Shown piece after piece: positions 28,487 through 37,739 of a stretch of 38,331 nucleotides of DNA. Position 1 is the stretch's first letter. The number at the start of each line of letters is the position of its first letter. This stretch comes from a virus, in the IMG/VR virus record IMGVR_UViG_3300042112_000753, positions 1-38,331 of that record; one strand, 5' to 3'. The notes beneath the pieces were generated by a model. It saw only the letters and a list, made by a program, of their open reading frames with translations, made no database searches and was not told the DNA's origin. Made by a program: the position numbers and the translations under genes.

Positions 28487-29218
28487 TTATTTAGTATTCT
28501 CTTCTATCCATTCTATGAAATTGCTTATTCTTGTGTGACCACTTTCTGTTAAATAGTCTGATCTAGGAGCCTTGTCTGCTATAACACAAGAATTTATACC
28601 AGCGAGTTTTCCGTCTATAAATAGTCCACCTCCACTATCTCCGACCGCTATTAGAAATTCTAGACTAGTTTTCATTTTAGATTTTGATGGAGAGCATATT
28701 AAAAGATGTCTATCTATATGATCAATAATATTCGACCCTGCCCTACGTTTGTTATCAGAGATTATAGCCCCGGTATTAAATGTGCCAGTTAATCCAAATC
28801 CAGATATACAACATATTTTACCAGCCTCATCACGATCTTTATATAATGGTGGATAAAATTCTAACTGAACTGAATCCTTTAATTTACCTATAGCAATATC
28901 ATATTGTCCAAATTTATTGTCTTCATATTCATTGGGATAATTAAAATATTCAATATCATATTTTTTGTTGTCTACAACTATCGTTCCACTACGAGCATCC
29001 TTAATAACATGGGCAGCTGTTAGAATATAAAATGGTTTAATAACAACTGCTGATGCACAATAGTTTTTATCGTCTGATCCTTTTCCACATAGACTAACCA
29101 CATAATTAAAATCTTTGGCATATTCTGTATATTTATGATCGGGAACCTCTGGGTCTATAGTTCCAGCATTAACTATGCTAGCTATTAATAATAATAACAT
29201 AAATAATATTTTTAACAT
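28487..29218 (-). CDS. Exported trypsin-like serine protease
   Basis: 243 residues. A signal peptide is clear (MLKILFMLLLLIASIVNA, cut probably before G19). The S1 triad is complete: His70 in ILTAAHVI, Asp107 in YDIAIGKL, Ser195 in VGDSGGGLF. Several cysteines (44, 54, 136, 137, 175) could form disulfides in the periplasm or outside. The start has a perfect AGGAGGTGAT ribosome-binding site, the strongest in the window. An exported protease is rare in phages; it could act on the host envelope, on lysis, or on competitors. The gene ends an operon that holds the AlkB-like and actin-like genes. Confidence 0.88.
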   Translation of the reverse strand: MLKILFMLLLLIASIVNAGTIDPEVPDHKYTEYAKDFNYVVSLCGKGSDDKNYCASAVVIKPFYILTAAHVIKDARSGTIVVDNKKYDIEYFNYPNEYEDNKFGQYDIAIGKLKDSVQLEFYPPLYKDRDEAGKICCISGFGLTGTFNTGAIISDNKRRAGSNIIDHIDRHLLICSPSKSKMKTSLEFLIAVGDSGGGLFIDGKLAGINSCVIADKAPRSDYLTESGHTRISNFIEWIEENTK

Positions 29219-29243: not shown

Positions 29244-29750
29244 CTTTTTCCCAGATCTGAAAACTATAGAAAATCTTGTGGATTCGACAGGCTCTATAGA
29301 GTGTTCCCAATCAAATCTTAACGGGCCGCTAAATTGAACCAGACTACGAGCAGGGACTAAGCGAGATATGTGTTGATTATTGTTTGAAAACACCATAACA
29401 GCATCCGATAATAAGCTGACTATGGTAATTATTGGACCACTAGATAAACTATCAATATGAGGAGCTATAGCATTGCCTGTTTGATATTCATTAATAGAGA
29501 TAGAATCTGGTATTTCTTTAAGTAATCCTTGAGCAAAAATTTTTTTACTTATATGCTCTAGATACTCAGGAATTTTATCAGAAACTATTTGATTTTTATA
29601 TGGAATATTAGATCCATATCTTTTAATACTAGATCTGGTTTCACCAGATACTTTTTTTGATAGTGTTAAATGAGATAATATTTCTCTTTCTTCTTTCTCT
29701 GATAGAAAGTTTGGTATTATTTTAAAACCTAAAGACTCTAACGAGATCAT
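29235..29750 (-). CDS. AlkB-like 2-oxoglutarate/Fe(II) dioxygenase
   Basis: 171 residues from the ATG at 29750, joined to the upstream stop as TAATG; an ATG at 29777 is also possible. Iron ligands are in place: H98-x-D100 in INEYQTGNAIAPHIDS, H150 in FDWEHSIEP, and R159/R165 in STRFSIVFRSG, which bind 2-oxoglutarate. The start FKIIPNFLSEKEEREIL matches the AlkB opening. AlkB enzymes reverse alkylation of DNA or RNA, and some phage members may modify nucleic acid or protein. Downstream of the actin-like gene in one operon. Confidence 0.82.
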   Translation of the reverse strand: MISLESLGFKIIPNFLSEKEEREILSHLTLSKKVSGETRSSIKRYGSNIPYKNQIVSDKIPEYLEHISKKIFAQGLLKEIPDSISINEYQTGNAIAPHIDSLSSGPIITIVSLLSDAVMVFSNNNQHISRLVPARSLVQFSGPLRFDWEHSIEPVESTRFSIVFRSGKKSV

Positions 29751-30757
29751 TACAACACTTTCGCTGCTATTAAACATCCCTTAGAAACCGCGTGCAAAGG
29801 ATCTGTTGCGTGTCTAACCTCTTTTATTTGTAATGGAAAATTATTTTCTATTAATTTTTTAGTAAATAAATCTATATACCCATCTGCTTGAGAAGTACCA
29901 CCAGCTACCACAATTGTTAATGGATTTTTAAATTTTGGAAGCGATTTGTGATCAGATAATGCGCTTGATAGTTGTTTGGCAGTATATTCTATGAGGCGAT
30001 CATAATACGCTGACACGGCAGACAACACTGGATTTTCGTTTGGTTCGCCAACTTTAAAACCTCCAGCCTCCTTCTCTGCTTGAACAACACTATCGGGTTC
30101 TCCGGTCGCCACGGCGCTCATACGATCAACCCAGTCGCCTGACTTGGTGGTGCTAAAGACTACTGTTGGTTCGCCGTTTAACATAACACAAATATTTGTC
30201 ATGCCAGCACCACAACTAATTGCTATACCAGTATAATCATCATTATCAAGTTCAGCATAGCATAATGCTTCTGCTTCATTAATTGATCTTGCATCATACC
30301 CACATTCTGCTAATACTGTTTTGACAATATCTTCATGATATCCAACGTCGAAATCATCATCATCTTGATCTACTGGTTGTGCTGGAACGCAAAATACTAA
30401 TTTTTCATTTTGTTCGGACGCTTGACCAGCAACCTCTTTAAGAATAAAGGCTAGAATTCTTTTAGCATCTTTTTCTTTTGCAGATACTACGCCCCTATAC
30501 ATTGGTCGTTTAGCCGTATCATTTCTTTCTATAGCCTTTTCGATAGCGTCTTTTCCTAGAAGAATAAAAGAGCCATCTATATCTTTAATAAAAGTTTTAC
30601 CGGACAAGCCCTTTTCTATCATTTTTGTAGCAACAGGTGTTGTTGGTTTAATAATATAAAAAGCATCTCTAAAATCTTTATATTCAACAGTGCCATCGGG
30701 TTTATCTGTTGATAATACTATATAAGATGTCCCCACATCTAATCCACGTCCACTCAT
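29750..30757 (-). CDS. Actin/Hsp70-fold ATPase (ParM/MreB-like)
   Basis: 335 residues. Phosphate-1 loop RGLDVGTSYIVLS (4-16), connect-1 NEAEALCYAEL (160-170), phosphate-2 loop GIAISCGAGMTNICVML (177-193) and adenosine loop TIVVAGGTSQADGY (281-294) appear in the correct order for the actin/Hsp70 superfamily. There is no Hsp70 substrate domain. The length fits ParM, MreB and phage actin-like proteins. Known phage members form filaments for plasmid-like segregation or DNA positioning, but a non-filament role such as a chaperone-like ATPase cannot be excluded. AAGGAG upstream. No ParR-like partner is obvious next to it. Confidence 0.8.
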   Translation of the reverse strand: MSGRGLDVGTSYIVLSTDKPDGTVEYKDFRDAFYIIKPTTPVATKMIEKGLSGKTFIKDIDGSFILLGKDAIEKAIERNDTAKRPMYRGVVSAKEKDAKRILAFILKEVAGQASEQNEKLVFCVPAQPVDQDDDDFDVGYHEDIVKTVLAECGYDARSINEAEALCYAELDNDDYTGIAISCGAGMTNICVMLNGEPTVVFSTTKSGDWVDRMSAVATGEPDSVVQAEKEAGGFKVGEPNENPVLSAVSAYYDRLIEYTAKQLSSALSDHKSLPKFKNPLTIVVAGGTSQADGYIDLFTKKLIENNFPLQIKEVRHATDPLHAVSKGCLIAAKVL

Positions 30758-31074
30758 ATATTATCTCCTTTAATATTAGTTATTAAGCCCCAGCGACTAC
30801 CGTTTTTAATTCTAGTAATAACGCTTCTTGACACATTGTATATATCTGCTATTTCTTGGTGTGTCTTATTTTTAATATTGAGAATTCTGTATACCTTTTG
30901 TTTTGTTAGTTTAGTTTTTTTATTATGTCCAGCTTTAATTCGTGTTTCTGTAGAATATTGATTACCATAATTTGCATTTTTATTACCTGTTCGGGTTTTA
31001 GCAATAACTGATAATTTTTTCTTTAGGGTTTTTGTATGTTTTTTCCCATAAAAAGGATTATTTATACCATACAA
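30754..31074 (-). pseudogene. Homing-endonuclease remnant: NUMOD3-like motif plus HTH, no nuclease domain
   Basis: 106 residues from a TTG at 31074; the frame is open upstream to 31163 but has no ATG. The start YGINNPFYGKKHTKTLKKKL is the NUMOD3 DNA-binding motif, and residues about 58-95 (KVYRILNIKNKTHQEIADIY, NVSRSVITRIKNGSRW) form a helix-turn-helix common at the end of GIY-YIG and HNH homing enzymes. No catalytic domain is present. It overlaps the ATG of the actin-like gene by ATGA. Either a fragment left after loss of the N-terminus or a small DNA-binding protein. Confidence 0.55.
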
Positions 31075-31328: not shown

Positions 31329-31609
31329 TTGAGTTTGTTTATGGACGAGGATATCTGTTCTGTGGATTGTTTAGTATCTCCCAATTTGTCATATTTTTTC
31401 TCTAAATTATCTGTTTTAATATCCACAACATATTTTGTATCATCAATAGATATGGTATTTTTTTCTTTTCTATTTTGTTGCTTAAAAAAAGATTCTGTAT
31501 TGTGTGTGGTTGTTGAAGAGAGTAAAATCTTGCCGCATAGTAAACCTAAAATAAAAGAGACAACATTTAAAATTAAAAGTATAAAAATAATAATGATACT
31601 ATTTGTCAT
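31313..31609 (-). CDS. Single-TM membrane protein
   Basis: 98 residues from the ATG at 31609 (MTNSIIIIFILLILNVVSFI), one strong transmembrane helix followed by a polar lysine-rich domain with ISIDDTKYVVDIKTDNLEKK and a helical tail. It overlaps the thioredoxin gene by 11 bases. No family is recognised. The polar part probably faces the cytoplasm or periplasm next to the exported thioredoxin; a partner role is possible. Confidence 0.6.
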   Translation of the reverse strand: MTNSIIIIFILLILNVVSFILGLLCGKILLSSTTTHNTESFFKQQNRKEKNTISIDDTKYVVDIKTDNLEKKYDKLGDTKQSTEQISSSINKLKNLKK

Positions 31610-31979
31610 CTTGAAACCATTTAATAAATTTTTCTTTTGTAGTATATCCACGCTGCCTTCTAACTTGAATGGTCTTTCTTAGGATACAATAGTCTGGAAT
31701 AAATTTGACATTATATTCTTTTGCTAGGGCTTGATTGGAATCAAGATTTAAATAACAAACTATTGTATCAGAAACCATACCTGGATTATCAGTAATGTCT
31801 TTTTTCATAATCTGACATTGTTTGCACCAATCTGCTGTAAATACTACTAGTATTTGTTTATTAGTATTTTCTGACAACGCTAAAGCATCTACCATATCAT
31901 ATACAAAAACGGGCGGTTCAACAGCATATGTTATGGACGATAGTAATAAAGCAAATATTGAGAATAGAATGAATTTCAT
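31599..31979 (-). CDS. Exported thioredoxin-fold protein
   Basis: 126 residues. A signal peptide (MKFILFSIFALLLSSITYA) precedes a small thioredoxin domain with LVVFTADWCKQCQIMKKDI (redox pair C52-x2-C55) and the cis-proline at 95 in VKFIPDYCIL. The short form resembles the periplasmic DUF255/thioredoxin-7 type, with two more cysteines at 75 and 98. It would act in the periplasm on disulfides, perhaps for the exported protease or a host envelope protein. It overlaps the RuvB gene by ATGA. Confidence 0.85.
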   Translation of the reverse strand: MKFILFSIFALLLSSITYAVEPPVFVYDMVDALALSENTNKQILVVFTADWCKQCQIMKKDITDNPGMVSDTIVCYLNLDSNQALAKEYNVKFIPDYCILRKTIQVRRQRGYTTKEKFIKWFQDDK

Positions 31980-32875
31980 TTTTTGTTTCCTATTACTCGA
32001 CCTTTCGGTGTTCTAATAACAAATTTTTCTCTAATTAAATATGGTTCTATACTATTTTCTATCGTTTCAATTGCGATTCCCGTCATAGAAGATATGCTTT
32101 TTAGCCCTAAAGGATTGCATCTGGATTTTTGTAACACATCCAAATATAGTCTATCATAAGCATCTAATCCTCTACTATCAATACCCTGACTGTTAAATAT
32201 TTCATCAATATCTGTCTTTTGATTCTCATAAAATGCCGTGTAATTTTTATACCACTGTAGTCTAGCATTTAGAATTCTTGGTGTGCCTTTGCTTCTTTTT
32301 GCTATTTCTAGTAGATCAGACTTGTCAATGATTAGTCCGAGTTTATTTGCGTTCAATCCGGCTAGTTCGGCTAACTCATCAGGGGTATAAAAAGAAAGAT
32401 GTTCTTTTATTGTGAAACGATCATAAAATGGCTGGCTTAGACTACCACCACTAGTTGTAGCACCAATAATAGTGAACATTGGTAGGTCAATAATTTCTGG
32501 TTTAGTATCCAGAGTAATATTAAGCGTAAAATCTTCCATTACTGGATATAAGAATTCTTCTACTATCTTAGGAAGCCTATGAATCTCATCTATAAATAGC
32601 ACAGACTTTGCCTCTATACCCATAAGATATGGTAGAATATTCTTGACACTTCTAATGTTTGCCGCGTTCACAGTGTATAGGTTGGTATCCAACTCACTGG
32701 CTATAGCACCCGCTATGGTTGTTTTACCAAGCCCCGGTGGCCCATCTATTAAAACATGGGGCATCACCCCCTGTGAGTTTAAACAGCCTCTCACCACGAT
32801 ACGGAGTCGTGATACAACATCTTGTTGGCCTATAACATCCTCAAAAGTTGTGGGTCGCATAATATTAGTTGCCAT
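31976..32875 (-). CDS. ruvB: RuvB-like Holliday junction branch-migration ATPase
   Basis: 299 residues, slightly shorter than cellular RuvB (about 335). Start MRPTTFEDVIGQQDVVSRL matches the RuvB opening (RPxxxxDxxGQ). Walker A GPPGLGKTT (45-53), Walker B LFIDEIHRLPKIVEEFLYP (93-111), sensor 1 IGATTSGG, arginine finger region PFYDRF (R153), and sensor 2 GTPRI (R200) are all present. The C-terminal winged helix reads LGLKSISSMTGIAIETIENS then IEPYLIREKF. It drives branch migration of recombination intermediates. There is no complete RuvA in the window; the upstream, overlapping gene carries a RuvA domain III-like module. Confidence 0.9.
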   Translation of the reverse strand: MATNIMRPTTFEDVIGQQDVVSRLRIVVRGCLNSQGVMPHVLIDGPPGLGKTTIAGAIASELDTNLYTVNAANIRSVKNILPYLMGIEAKSVLFIDEIHRLPKIVEEFLYPVMEDFTLNITLDTKPEIIDLPMFTIIGATTSGGSLSQPFYDRFTIKEHLSFYTPDELAELAGLNANKLGLIIDKSDLLEIAKRSKGTPRILNARLQWYKNYTAFYENQKTDIDEIFNSQGIDSRGLDAYDRLYLDVLQKSRCNPLGLKSISSMTGIAIETIENSIEPYLIREKFVIRTPKGRVIGNKK

Positions 32876-33270
32876 TAGTCGTTCCTCATTGATGCCAAAG
32901 TTTGTTTAACCAAAGACGCAAAATCATCATTAGGATTTTTCATATAAGAAGTCTGTATTAAATCGGTTGCTTCTGTGTTGGTAAATCCATAACCAACCAA
33001 TAATTTAACAGACTTGTCCAGTAGATCAACCGGAATTTTATGTATCTTTTTAGTGGTCTGTGGTTCGTATTTAAGTTTAAAGCCTTTTACTAGCCTAACG
33101 CCAAACACTTCACCACAGCAGCAGACTACTTTAAAATTTTTGGTAGATGCCTCATTTAAAGATAGCCAATGATCTTGAGCACATTTTTTACATCTATATT
33201 TCAGATGAATGTCGTACTCAATCGGTTTCTGGATTTTCAATAATTTTTTTGATGTCTTCTTTATGTTCAT
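32875..33270 (-). CDS. Zinc-ribbon protein with RuvA domain III-like C-terminus
   Basis: 131 residues. Residues 23-55 form a zinc ribbon with C27-x2-C30 and C50-C51-C52 (YRCKKCAQDHWL, VVCCCGEVF). A basic linker follows. Residues about 81-131 (VDLLDKSVKLLVGYGFTNTE, then ATDLIQTSY...FASLVKQTLASM) match the three-helix RuvA domain III (AVxxLxxLGYxxxEA...LIRxAL), which contacts and activates RuvB. The ATG of ruvB overlaps this gene's stop by one base. No OB-fold or HhH domains of RuvA are present. A plausible job is loading RuvB on DNA through the ribbon. The fusion and role are inference from motif likeness. Confidence 0.65.
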   Translation of the reverse strand: MNIKKTSKKLLKIQKPIEYDIHLKYRCKKCAQDHWLSLNEASTKNFKVVCCCGEVFGVRLVKGFKLKYEPQTTKKIHKIPVDLLDKSVKLLVGYGFTNTEATDLIQTSYMKNPNDDFASLVKQTLASMRND

Positions 33271-33646
33271 CTTTTATCCAAAAAACAAAGTCATTTGAAT
33301 CATTGTCATATGCTGATTCTACTAGACCCATGTTTGCCAAGTTATTTAAAATATTACTGACTAGTCTATCGTTTAGAAGTTCTAAAAATTTCATAAAATC
33401 TTTATCGCTTACTAAGTATTTATCTTGATCAAATGTAAAAATTGTTTTGGCTATAACAGCAGACTCATCATATGATAATGATTTGTCTAGTTCTTCTTTA
33501 TCTGATTGTTGAGTACAATTTATTAGACTATCAATAGGATCTTGATCAGAATCATCTACACTTTTACCAAAACTATTAAAGATTAATGCTCTAGAGGCAT
33601 TAATAAATTCTTCAAAATTATTTATTGCATACCATTGATTATTCAT
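33218..33646 (-). CDS. Conserved phage protein, winged-helix-like C-terminus
   Basis: 142 residues. The middle is acidic. The C-terminal part (FMKFLELLNDRLVSNILNNL, then ANMGLVESAYDNDSNDFVFW) has the helix-helix-wing pattern of a winged helix, a common DNA- or protein-binding fold. It overlaps the zinc-ribbon gene by 53 bases. Expression with ruvB suggests a link to recombination or replication, but function is unknown. Confidence 0.6.
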   Translation of the reverse strand: MNNQWYAINNFEEFINASRALIFNSFGKSVDDSDQDPIDSLINCTQQSDKEELDKSLSYDESAVIAKTIFTFDQDKYLVSDKDFMKFLELLNDRLVSNILNNLANMGLVESAYDNDSNDFVFWIKDEHKEDIKKIIENPETD

Positions 33647-34177: not shown

Positions 34178-35035
34178 TCAATACTGATCGTCGTAATCTT
34201 CCTCGTCAGCATAATAATCTTCATCAACATCTTCTTCATCATCATTCCAACCCCAATCGTAATCATGATCATCTTCATCATCGGCATATTCATCCTCGCT
34301 AAAGGTGGCCGCGTAAAGAGGCTTGAGTAGTTCGCCTTGATACTCTCCAACAACTTCATATTGGCAAGTGCGAAGTTTCTCACAATTACAATCTGTCGGA
34401 ACGCTAACAACATCACGGGGATTAATCTTGACGATCACAATACGATCACCAGCATCGACACTACCATAACTCGCCACATAGTTCAATGCACCAGCATGAA
34501 GTCCATCAGAACATCCTCTGGCACGATCATCATCGACCTTGGCTCGTTGCATCTTAACTATTTGACCAACGCTATTATCAAATACGCCACGATACTTGTC
34601 CTTAAAATCATTCCTAACAGCCTTATAGGCAAGGAAAAAACCATCCTCAGTAATAGGTAAATGCTCATGTTCAAGGAAATCATAAAGTTCCTTTTGGCTT
34701 TGCATACTAGGATTGTCCATAAGATTATTCAGGAAATTAACAAGAGGCTGGAAAGGCAAGCCCTTGCTCATAAACTCCAGAATACGCTTACTGATACTAC
34801 CATGAACAACCTCGCCCTCATAGGTGACTTGGCCGTTCTTAATCTCCACAAGACCATCACTAAAACTAGCAACAGCCTTTTCCACATCCACAATATCCAA
34901 AAGTTCATCTGCTGTAGCAGTTGGTAGAATCTCTAGGATCGTCTTGTAATTAATATGATCTGGCAAGACCTGATAAGTCTTATTATTAAGCACCAGAGTC
35001 AGATTACCATCAACCCACATAAAAGGAACGCTCAT
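34178..35035 (-). CDS. rIIB-like protein
   Basis: 285 residues. The central block follows phage rIIB: LYDFLEHEHLPITEDGFFLA, YKAVRNDFKDKYRG.FDNSVG, then RGCSDGLHAGALNYVASYGS and VIVKINPRDVVSVPTDCNCE. The last 40 residues are a run of Asp, Glu and Tyr, which is extra compared with the core family. AGGAG lies 7 bases upstream. In T4, rIIA and rIIB act together at the membrane in lysis inhibition and exclusion by prophage Rex. It is in one transcript with the rIIA-like gene. Confidence 0.85.
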   Translation of the reverse strand: MSVPFMWVDGNLTLVLNNKTYQVLPDHINYKTILEILPTATADELLDIVDVEKAVASFSDGLVEIKNGQVTYEGEVVHGSISKRILEFMSKGLPFQPLVNFLNNLMDNPSMQSQKELYDFLEHEHLPITEDGFFLAYKAVRNDFKDKYRGVFDNSVGQIVKMQRAKVDDDRARGCSDGLHAGALNYVASYGSVDAGDRIVIVKINPRDVVSVPTDCNCEKLRTCQYEVVGEYQGELLKPLYAATFSEDEYADDEDDHDYDWGWNDDEEDVDEDYYADEEDYDDQY

Positions 35036-35060
35036 TGTAAACTCCTGTTTTCCTGTGAAA

Positions 35061-37739
35061 TTAACCGATTGTGCTACTCAATTGTTGTCTGAATGACTCC
35101 ACATCATCCAGTTTTTGAAACCAACTTTCTCTACCACCAGTATTGCCATAGTAATGATATCGACTACCATTACCCTCAACCTGTTTTAGAGGATTTGGGT
35201 TTTTGTTCAGACTTCTGATGTTGCCATCAACACTGACACTGGCAATAATATACTTGAGCATGGGGTTCTTGTCAAGTTCCACTTTCAAAGTATTTCTTAT
35301 CGTATCCATGCTGGGCATCTTGTACAAATCACCAGAATTACTCTTAATAATATCTGTATATTTTTCATATGCTTTGTTGTCAGTCTCAAGATGATACAAA
35401 CAAGCGAGCATATGTAGAATAGTATTATATGCGATATTCATGGTCTTAATCTCTTTACTATCAAGTCCATTGATTCCAATGTCGCTCAATAGTCTGGTAA
35501 TTAGACCATAATAATCTTTGGCAGAAAATCTACTCATATCAAAGTTATCTCGATGAATAGTATCCGCAAAAAACTCCATAACCATTAGACTATCTAGACA
35601 CTTGACCAATTCCTTGTTAGGAATATACTTTTCATATTCCAGACCAAAGATATTAAGAATATGATACAGAACAGTCTTGTCTGTTGAACCTCTTCCATAG
35701 TAATCTGAAGTGGTTCTATCTTCGCTAGACAATTCTTTCTTACAATTCTCCACCATAGTATTAAACTTAATCATGTCAGCAAACTTGTTCTTATTATAAT
35801 CCTTTAGACGCTCTTGCATCCAAGTATTAAAATCCACAAGGTTGTATCCTTCATTGACTAGTTTCTGTACAAAATTATGCTTGATAGCATAGATATTTGT
35901 ATCACCAAGAAAATCTGGAATTCTCTTGATATTGTCACCAGACAATTGCTTATAGATTTCAGTTACTGATGGAAAATTAGTTGTAGAAGCATATCGTAGA
36001 ATAGGAACATATACGATAGTGTCCTCTTCCAAAAAGTCATCCAGACGATCAGTTGTCATGCTTCTCATATACGGAGAAGAATTATAACCAATAGTCAAAG
36101 GACTGGTATTCTTTTGGTCACCAATAATCAAGAAAACATCTTGATCGCTGACACTACCCTTACTACCCTTACTTCCCTTATTCTTTGGTGTTGACTTAAT
36201 AAGATCACGATAGTCTGATATATTGAGTACATTATCCTCTCCAACATCAGACACTAGATCATCAAAACCCTTAGTAACATTTTTGTGATCTTCTGTGTCT
36301 ACCATAAGGTATACAAAACAATCATTTTGATTTGAATACTTTGTGGCAATCTTCTTTGCTGTTTCTACTGCTGCCATATCACAGTAGAAGAATTTCATTT
36401 CTCCACTCTTTCTTGTGGAATTCCAATATGCGGCTCCCTTACCAGTAAGAGTTTCGTGATGAATTCTATCTGTCAAATAAACCATACGACGAGAACGATA
36501 GCCCGCTGTACGATAATTAAAGACATACAGATTCTTACTCTTCTTAAACTTATACTCCAGATCAGAACCTGAACTAATATCATGTACCTTGCCATTACTA
36601 TCAGTCCATGAAGCACCAACGCCCCATCCACCAGCAAGGTCGTTCAACTGATAATAGGTAGTGATTGCTTCCACCTTAGTTTTAGCAGAGGCGATCTTTT
36701 CCGAAAACATATCCTTTAGTTCTGCAAAAATCTCCTGAGTCTTTCGACGAAGATTCTTGATTACATCTTTGGTATACTGCAAACCTTCTCGACTAACATC
36801 CATTTCAAGTTCGCCAATACCAAAATCCAACTCAAGATACAGACCATGATTAATTACTTCGCCAACAAAACTCTTCCAAGACGCAATATCCGCCTTGTTA
36901 AAAGCCCTATTCCAACGAGCAATATGGTCTGGAGTTTCAGCCTTCTCTTCACCGATCAGATTTTCTACCTGAACAGGATAGGCGATATTACCCATCAGAG
37001 CAATAACACCACTATTAATCTTGTGATGATGGTTCGGGAAAAGTCTAGTATCATTATTTAGGCGGCAGACCCTCCATCCTTCACCACTAATAACAATATT
37101 TTTATTGTCATAATCCTTAGTGAAATCCCAATGAACTCCACCAGTAATAATTGGCTTAATTCTAAAATAATGAAAAACCCTAATAGCCTTCTGACTAAAC
37201 TCTGTAAAGTCATATTGCTTAACAGCAAAACTAATCTCAAGACCATTAGGTTCGGATGTTTCGCACGAATGAATAAGGTTCAGAGTAGGAACACCAGCAT
37301 CATCAATAGCGGCAATATAAGTATATTGAGTGCCATTAAAATAAGAAGTGGTAGTAAAACTCTTGGTATAAGCAAACGGACTCTTAGAACCTAGACCAAG
37401 ACAACCAACAAAGTCATTACTATCATTCTTATTGGACGCACCGTAAGTTGTATACAGATGCTCCATATCTTTTTGACTAAGACCAGTGCCATAATCACGC
37501 ACGCTAAAATTAGGATCAGCAGCGGTTGGCAACTTTACAGAGAAAGGATTCTTATTGCCAGCACTAACATGACTATCATAAGCATTTGTGGCAAGTTCAC
37601 GAATAACTGCCATTACTTTGTCGGAATAAAGAGAATCCGACAAAATCTTAAACATTTTACTGGTTTGTGCAATAGTAAACTGATTCGCACTACTAATACC
37701 AGCACTATGAACTTCAACTGTGCGATCTGCCAACTTCAT
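35061..37739 (-). CDS. rIIA-like protein with GHKL ATPase domain
   Basis: 892 residues, larger than T4 rIIA (725). The N-terminal GHKL (Hsp90/histidine kinase/MutL) fold is clear: VIRELATNAYDSHVSA (E48, N52), FSVRDYGTGLSQKDMEHLYT (D82, G84, G86) and CLGLGSKSPFAYTKSF (G-rich lid). The remaining 500 residues are less conserved, with a glycine/serine-lysine run near residue 520 (NKGSKGSKGSVSD). GGAG lies 7 bases before the ATG. A strong sigma70-type promoter stands directly upstream, so it is probably among the earliest transcripts. Confidence 0.88.
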   Translation of the reverse strand: MKLADRTVEVHSAGISSANQFTIAQTSKMFKILSDSLYSDKVMAVIRELATNAYDSHVSAGNKNPFSVKLPTAADPNFSVRDYGTGLSQKDMEHLYTTYGASNKNDSNDFVGCLGLGSKSPFAYTKSFTTTSYFNGTQYTYIAAIDDAGVPTLNLIHSCETSEPNGLEISFAVKQYDFTEFSQKAIRVFHYFRIKPIITGGVHWDFTKDYDNKNIVISGEGWRVCRLNNDTRLFPNHHHKINSGVIALMGNIAYPVQVENLIGEEKAETPDHIARWNRAFNKADIASWKSFVGEVINHGLYLELDFGIGELEMDVSREGLQYTKDVIKNLRRKTQEIFAELKDMFSEKIASAKTKVEAITTYYQLNDLAGGWGVGASWTDSNGKVHDISSGSDLEYKFKKSKNLYVFNYRTAGYRSRRMVYLTDRIHHETLTGKGAAYWNSTRKSGEMKFFYCDMAAVETAKKIATKYSNQNDCFVYLMVDTEDHKNVTKGFDDLVSDVGEDNVLNISDYRDLIKSTPKNKGSKGSKGSVSDQDVFLIIGDQKNTSPLTIGYNSSPYMRSMTTDRLDDFLEEDTIVYVPILRYASTTNFPSVTEIYKQLSGDNIKRIPDFLGDTNIYAIKHNFVQKLVNEGYNLVDFNTWMQERLKDYNKNKFADMIKFNTMVENCKKELSSEDRTTSDYYGRGSTDKTVLYHILNIFGLEYEKYIPNKELVKCLDSLMVMEFFADTIHRDNFDMSRFSAKDYYGLITRLLSDIGINGLDSKEIKTMNIAYNTILHMLACLYHLETDNKAYEKYTDIIKSNSGDLYKMPSMDTIRNTLKVELDKNPMLKYIIASVSVDGNIRSLNKNPNPLKQVEGNGSRYHYYGNTGGRESWFQKLDDVESFRQQLSSTIG

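Follow-up and report, generated by a model that had tools for sequence, protein, structure and literature searches.

Can a RuvB motor be run with only part of RuvA? In the prevailing view, RuvA holds the junction and also serves as the fulcrum or regulator of RuvB, and the question is raised by a stretch of viral DNA of 38,331 nucleotides (IMG/VR record IMGVR_UViG_3300042112_000753, positions 1 to 38,331; this whole stretch is called the window below), in which ruvB adjoins a small gene whose product, here named the adaptor, combines a zinc ribbon with a domain resembling domain III (D3) of RuvA. We put at roughly two in three the probability that RuvB serves these phages as a motor whose D3 regulator or tether sits on a zinc ribbon in place of the RuvA core, and which works with phage recombination proteins. 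A large group of uncultured phages carries RuvB together with this tiny zinc-ribbon protein, and in them the junction-gripping half of RuvAB appears to have been replaced. The features concerned are listed here, each with its basis.

31976..32875, minus strand: ruvB, 299 amino acids (aa), AAA+ ATPase, RuvB lid and C-terminal winged-helix DNA-binding domain (Pfam; RuvB chains in the PDB)
32717..32743, minus strand: Walker A motif GPPGLGKTT of RuvB (sequence; lysine invariant in 62 unique RuvBs)
32474..32530, minus strand: presensor-1 beta-hairpin of RuvB, residues 116-134, FTLNITLDTKPEIIDLPMF, the expected D3 dock (alignment to P. aeruginosa RuvB 134-156)
32875..33270, minus strand: adaptor gene, 131 aa, zinc ribbon, linker and RuvA domain III (alignment, predicted fold)
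33091..33213, minus strand: zinc ribbon, about residues 20-60, C27-x2-C30 ... C50-x-C52 (four invariant cysteines; predicted strands with a predicted local distance difference test score, pLDDT, of 88-90)
33040..33090, minus strand: linker from ribbon to D3, estimated at 3-59 aa in relatives (alignment, predicted fold)
32881..33039, minus strand: RuvA domain III-like three-helix domain, about residues 78-130 (profile, Pfam, predicted fold)

The three ORFs were found at the positions given in the first-pass annotation of the window. The one at 31976-32875 encodes, judged by its sequence, a complete RuvB. It matched RuvB_N (PF05496, 1e-44), RuvB_C (PF05491, 8e-18), and AAA_lid_4 (PF17864, 2e-8) in Pfam, all above cut-off, and solved RuvB chains in the PDB with an E value of about 5e-61, in agreement with that annotation, which had been made from the letters alone. 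Walker A and B, sensor 1, the arginine finger, and sensor 2 are invariant among the 62 unique phage RuvBs.

The same annotation had read the C-terminal block of the adaptor as RuvA domain III, and profile, Pfam, and predicted-fold comparisons support D3 homology. The best PDB match of the adaptor family profile was 1ixs_A, the RuvA D3 crystallized with RuvB (E=5e-4, or 2e-3 with the C-terminal domain alone), followed by other RuvA chains. RuvA_C was the Pfam family matched by most adaptors (15/52, best 3.5e-5), and hhalign of the adaptor with two RuvA D3 sequences gave a probability of 95 over 48 columns. The AlphaFold model consists of a short N-terminal helix, ribbon strands within residues 22-57, and helices at 81-93, 98-111, and 117-130; its pLDDT is 81-90 in both domains, and the overall predicted template modeling score is low (0.37), which is no surprise for two loosely linked domains. 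When this fold was compared with known structures, VIA-align ranks 1 to 11 were all RuvA D3 (Z 6.5-8.2 over 46-52 residues, root mean square deviation 1.5-2.2), the next match having a Z of 5.8, and 1ixs_A was again the top Foldseek match (prob 0.99); a viral structure library contained no confident relative. The searches thus did not place the C terminus in an unrelated helical family, which had been named beforehand as an outcome that would speak against the proposal. The residues that couple D3 to RuvB are also retained: the L167A and L170A substitutions in E. coli RuvA eliminate RuvB activity and leave junction binding unaffected (Nishino 1998, as cited in PMC2628435), and in our alignment L167 corresponds to adaptor L91 (L in 48/52) and L170 to Y94 (Y in 44, L in 6, and F in 2 of 52).

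Adaptor and ruvB are tightly linked. The stop codon of the former and the start codon of the latter share one base (TAATG; 1-nucleotide [nt] overlap), and the pair recurs in related phages, a check that the first-pass annotation had proposed. When IMG/VR was searched with RuvB, 80 loci were obtained, in 69 of which the adaptor is directly upstream of ruvB; an adaptor-first search also gave 80 loci, with ruvB immediately 3' of the adaptor in 80/80 with enough downstream DNA; the other 2 of the 82 adaptor open reading frames (ORFs) looked at stop at a contig end. No ORF fusing the adaptor to RuvB was found. Besides the start, P16, Y25, C27, C30, C50, C52, and G95 are invariant in 52 unique adaptors. 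The ratio of nonsynonymous to synonymous substitution rates is 0.10-0.31 in pairs with useful divergence, the overlapping region being left out, and the adaptor is therefore a real gene on which purifying selection acts. A search of 50,697 phage records matched neither the adaptor nor the protein encoded upstream of it, and among the best matches listed for the window's rIIA, identity to isolates does not exceed about 37%; as far as these collections show, the group is therefore uncultured. A genome-collection scan with a subset of the adaptor alignment returned one contig of a metagenome-assembled genome (MAG), which also belongs to this phage group. A bacterial MAG contig with the same rIIA-rIIB-adaptor-ruvB block (L320; RFVO01000059.1, Chitinophagia MAG) probably represents phage DNA that ended up in the MAG bin and gives a weak hint of a Bacteroidota host.

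At its N-terminal side, the adaptor has cysteines at positions 27, 30, 50, 51, and 52, all of which had been assigned to a zinc ribbon. That assignment stands for C27, C30, C50, and C52, which are invariant in the 52 relatives, and not for C51, which is present in the window and not conserved. The spacing in relatives is C-x2-C or C-x4-C, x19, then C-x-C, with some C-x2-C; the C-x2-C variant adaptors (loci L253, L299, and L300) were counted as adaptor-plus. By sequence, two cysteine pairs would lie on knuckles, as in a zinc ribbon. The net charge of the ribbon is modestly basic (median, +4).

What appears to be missing is the part of RuvA that grips the junction. We searched 25 related contigs of 32-238 kb, including a 122-kb contig with an identical ruvB-adaptor pair, and RuvA_N (domain I OB fold, PF01330) was found in 0/25, while 10/14 control genomes were positive; a full RuvA elsewhere, which would have spoken against the proposal, was thus not found. 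The adaptor itself lacks a Pfam match to the domain I OB fold and a match to the RuvA helix-hairpin-helix (HhH, domain II), as had been predicted, and its 131 aa hold only the short N-terminal helix, the ribbon, the linker, and the three-helix bundle. Since domains I and II are lacking, the adaptor is not a RuvA by definition; by analogy, it plausibly works like the D3 of RuvA. In the adaptor-plus contigs tested, the D3 profile found the adaptor in every one, plus a single second match (E=0.06), and in six adaptor-minus contigs of 161-230 kb it found no match. RuvC was not found in the related contigs, except for one weak match below cut-off, located at 88008-88184 (+) of contig G016 (L073) inside a 5392-codon open frame for a giant protein.

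Phages of the same group that lack the adaptor offer a comparison. Three RuvB searches and the adaptor search, pooled, gave 132 distinct RuvBs, 109 with and 23 without an adaptor. Where the adaptor is missing, the upstream gene lies directly against ruvB, and several of these loci retain its KPETD-stop tail, whose codons overlap those for the NQKPI of the adaptor, which suggests adaptor loss. These RuvBs are scattered over the RuvB tree, parsimony placing 15 changes on the best tree and at least 3 on supported branches. Their motor residues are unchanged. The presensor-1 beta-hairpin is the known dock of D3 (PMC9477746, PMC10272136, PMC2628435). In the phage proteins it is present and remodeled by a 4-residue deletion relative to P. 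aeruginosa RuvB 134-156, with tip insertions in some; residues aligned to P. aeruginosa 146-149 are missing in 132/132. In its first strand, the column of P. aeruginosa I138 is hydrophobic in 109/109 RuvBs with an adaptor versus 18/23 without (Fisher p=1.1e-4), and it is the most different of 239 class-conserved columns between the two sets. I120 and L122 of the window's RuvB align to P. aeruginosa I138 and I140. Because relatives are not independent, changes were also placed on a tree from which the hairpin columns had been left out: the hairpin changed 12 times in adaptor-minus lineages versus 10 elsewhere (background fraction, 0.198; p=3e-4), and no excess was seen in the other five RuvB regions. 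The relaxation is partial, with isoleucine kept in 13/23 adaptor-minus RuvBs, and the tree is weakly supported; for these reasons, relaxation of the putative dock in adaptor-minus lineages speaks well for docking but does not decide the matter. Taken with the homology, this pattern of loss makes a D3 adaptor in place of RuvA well supported.

The recombination genes of the group fit such a motor. RecA-family genes were found in 16/16 contigs and endonuclease VII-type genes in 14/16 (HNH relatives not separated). A broad UvsW profile found 0/16, all 14 cellular controls and T4 being positive; it is a better test than single T4 UvsW or gp23 protein queries, which were uninformative because the capsid gene was missed too. 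The T4 major capsid family was not found, and strictly speaking the phages are therefore not T4-like.

The D3 of RuvAB keeps the ring attached to the junction; when it binds one subunit's hairpin, it promotes the release of ADP and the hydrolysis of ATP in other subunits (PMC9477746). Building on the RuvB identity with intact motor residues, the D3 homology, the genetic linkage, the lack of RuvA domain I in the searched contigs, and the hairpin relaxation, all directly observed or strongly supported, we propose that the adaptor D3 would dock on the presensor-1 hairpin, recruit and tether RuvB, and, by analogy with RuvAB, stimulate nucleotide exchange and ATP hydrolysis. The zinc ribbon would take over from the OB-fold/HhH core as anchor, its target most likely being branched DNA or a recombination protein of the phage, and the motor would move recombination junctions together with the RecA/UvsX-family recombinase and the endonuclease VII-type protein. 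That the ribbon is an anchor, that the reaction is branch migration, and that there is a third component are offered as hypotheses.

Several points weigh against this proposal. Single-sequence Pfam and PHROG scans of the window's own adaptor gave no match, family profiles did, and the homology thus depends on the family. Structural matches of the ribbon are weak (ZitP with a Z of 3.4, LysW with 2.6, and ribosomal ribbons in VIA-align), so DNA binding is a guess, and these matches favor neither DNA nor protein as the target. No contig reached a completeness rating of 90%. The hairpin changes were mapped by parsimony on a quick tree with many weak branches, and an independent-pairs test limited to supported branches had 3 pairs and no power. 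The adaptor is not indispensable to RuvB, as several phages of the group do without it, and a host RuvA could act on the phage RuvB.

Among the alternatives, the one that survives best, though we consider it unlikely, keeps D3 docking on RuvB and has the ribbon send the ring to the replisome, RNA polymerase, packaging, or the upstream winged-helix-like protein, as a general double-stranded DNA translocase and not for junction migration. The best, weak ribbon matches are indeed protein- or RNA-binding ribbons, the ribbon's charge is only modest, and the upstream protein adjoins ruvB in adaptor-minus loci; against this, the RuvB_C winged helix keeps its DNA-hairpin arginines (R314 and R319, with R317 as K), and RecA-family and endonuclease VII genes co-occur. 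That host RuvA loads the phage RuvB, the adaptor only tuning or competing with the host D3, seems improbable to us: hosts normally carry RuvA, and RuvA and RuvB of different species can cross-complement (PMC9477746), but the four missing dock residues in all phage RuvBs speak against it, and relaxation of the dock in adaptor-minus phages is not expected if host RuvA used it. We give very little credit to a decoy role, in which an isolated D3, which without a junction-binding core might compete with RuvA, occupies host RuvB and blocks host RuvAB, given the strict linkage and overlap of the adaptor with the phage's own ruvB and the relaxation of the phage dock upon adaptor loss. Equally hard to credit is the idea that the C terminus has no relation to RuvA and is a generic three-helix bundle of the UBA-like kind: such folds are common and UBA matches do appear lower in the lists (UBA_9 in 2/52 adaptors, best E 0.001; VIA Z of at most 5.1), but RuvA D3 tops all searches, the functional residues L91 and Y94 match RuvA, and the RuvB hairpin relaxes.

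Setting the zinc-ribbon-borne D3 beside known systems, the phage pair has in common with bacterial RuvAB a complete RuvB, a D3 linked to another module, adjacent genes, and the RuvB-coupling residues of D3. However, bacterial RuvA has domains I and II where the adaptor has a four-cysteine ribbon, and the RuvB hairpin of the phages lacks four residues. With phage T4 (UvsX, UvsW, and endonuclease VII), the group shares a RecA-family recombinase, an endonuclease VII-type gene, rIIA, and rIIB; unlike T4, which has the UvsW helicase, the 16 contigs have no UvsW-type profile match and carry RuvB instead. Jumbo phages with RuvC-type resolvases are likewise large phages with their own Holliday-junction processing (PMC7824862), but the present group carries RuvB, and no RuvC was found in it beyond the match below cut-off; a large-phage survey lists RuvC or endonuclease VII without RuvB. 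The ruvBs in "phage" records (Wolbachia WO, Acinetobacter MD-2021a, and Streptococcus Javan141) encode proteins 36-38% identical in sequence; two of the three inspected adjoin a full ruvA among cellular genes and the third lies among host-like genes, none with an annotated zinc-ribbon adaptor. A phage RuvB with a D3 adaptor was not found in the open-licence literature, and the arrangement was found in no described phage or paper in our searches of phage records and that literature.

If nature has retained the regulator D3 alone and set it on another anchor, such a system would separate the two roles of RuvA, testable with two small proteins, and would add a RuvB-based route to phage recombination. 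The repeated adaptor losses with dock relaxation constitute a ready comparative test of the RuvB residues that serve D3. A bolder version, to which we give somewhat less than even odds, is that of a RuvA-independent branch-migration machine in a large uncultured phage clade, in which the adaptor replaces both RuvA and UvsW and a tethered D3, rather than the RuvA core that grips the junction, is the minimum needed to run RuvB.

The gene upstream of the adaptor had been suggested as a winged-helix third component.

33218..33646, minus strand: conserved upstream gene, 142 aa, possible winged helix (alignment, model)

Its last 53 nt (33218-33270) overlap the adaptor in another frame, as had been noted, and the gene is conserved; KPETD-stop at its C terminus and NQKPI of the adaptor, encoded by the same bases, are both widely conserved. 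Invariant residues of the protein include R19, E61, R94, N98, F120, F122, and W123, and its model (pLDDT 85.6) ends in a helix followed by a beta-hairpin. Structural matches are weak (MarR-type; best VIA Z 4.6, a sigma factor), and structure searches gave no confident neighbor, a winged helix still being compatible. The gene adjoins ruvB with or without the adaptor and may thus be linked to RuvB in function; the same adjacency would follow from synteny alone, and a winged-helix third component is unproven.

Other neighbors complete the locus. Upstream of the ruvB operon are homologues of rIIA and rIIB (34178-37739, minus strand), of which rIIB has the same place in relatives. A thioredoxin-like gene with a signal-like N terminus (31599-31979, minus strand) overlaps the ruvB stop by 4 nt and is missing in some relatives. 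Downstream of ruvB, relatives keep the gene for an actin-like protein (29750-30757, minus strand; Pfam Volactin, 2.5e-63), a family unusual for a phage. Between the membrane-protein and actin-like genes, a short ORF (30754-31074, minus strand) resembles homing endonuclease DNA-binding repeats, and in relatives an HNH gene lies in the vicinity. Further downstream is a trypsin-like protease gene (28487-29218, minus strand), followed in several relatives by a subtilisin-like one.
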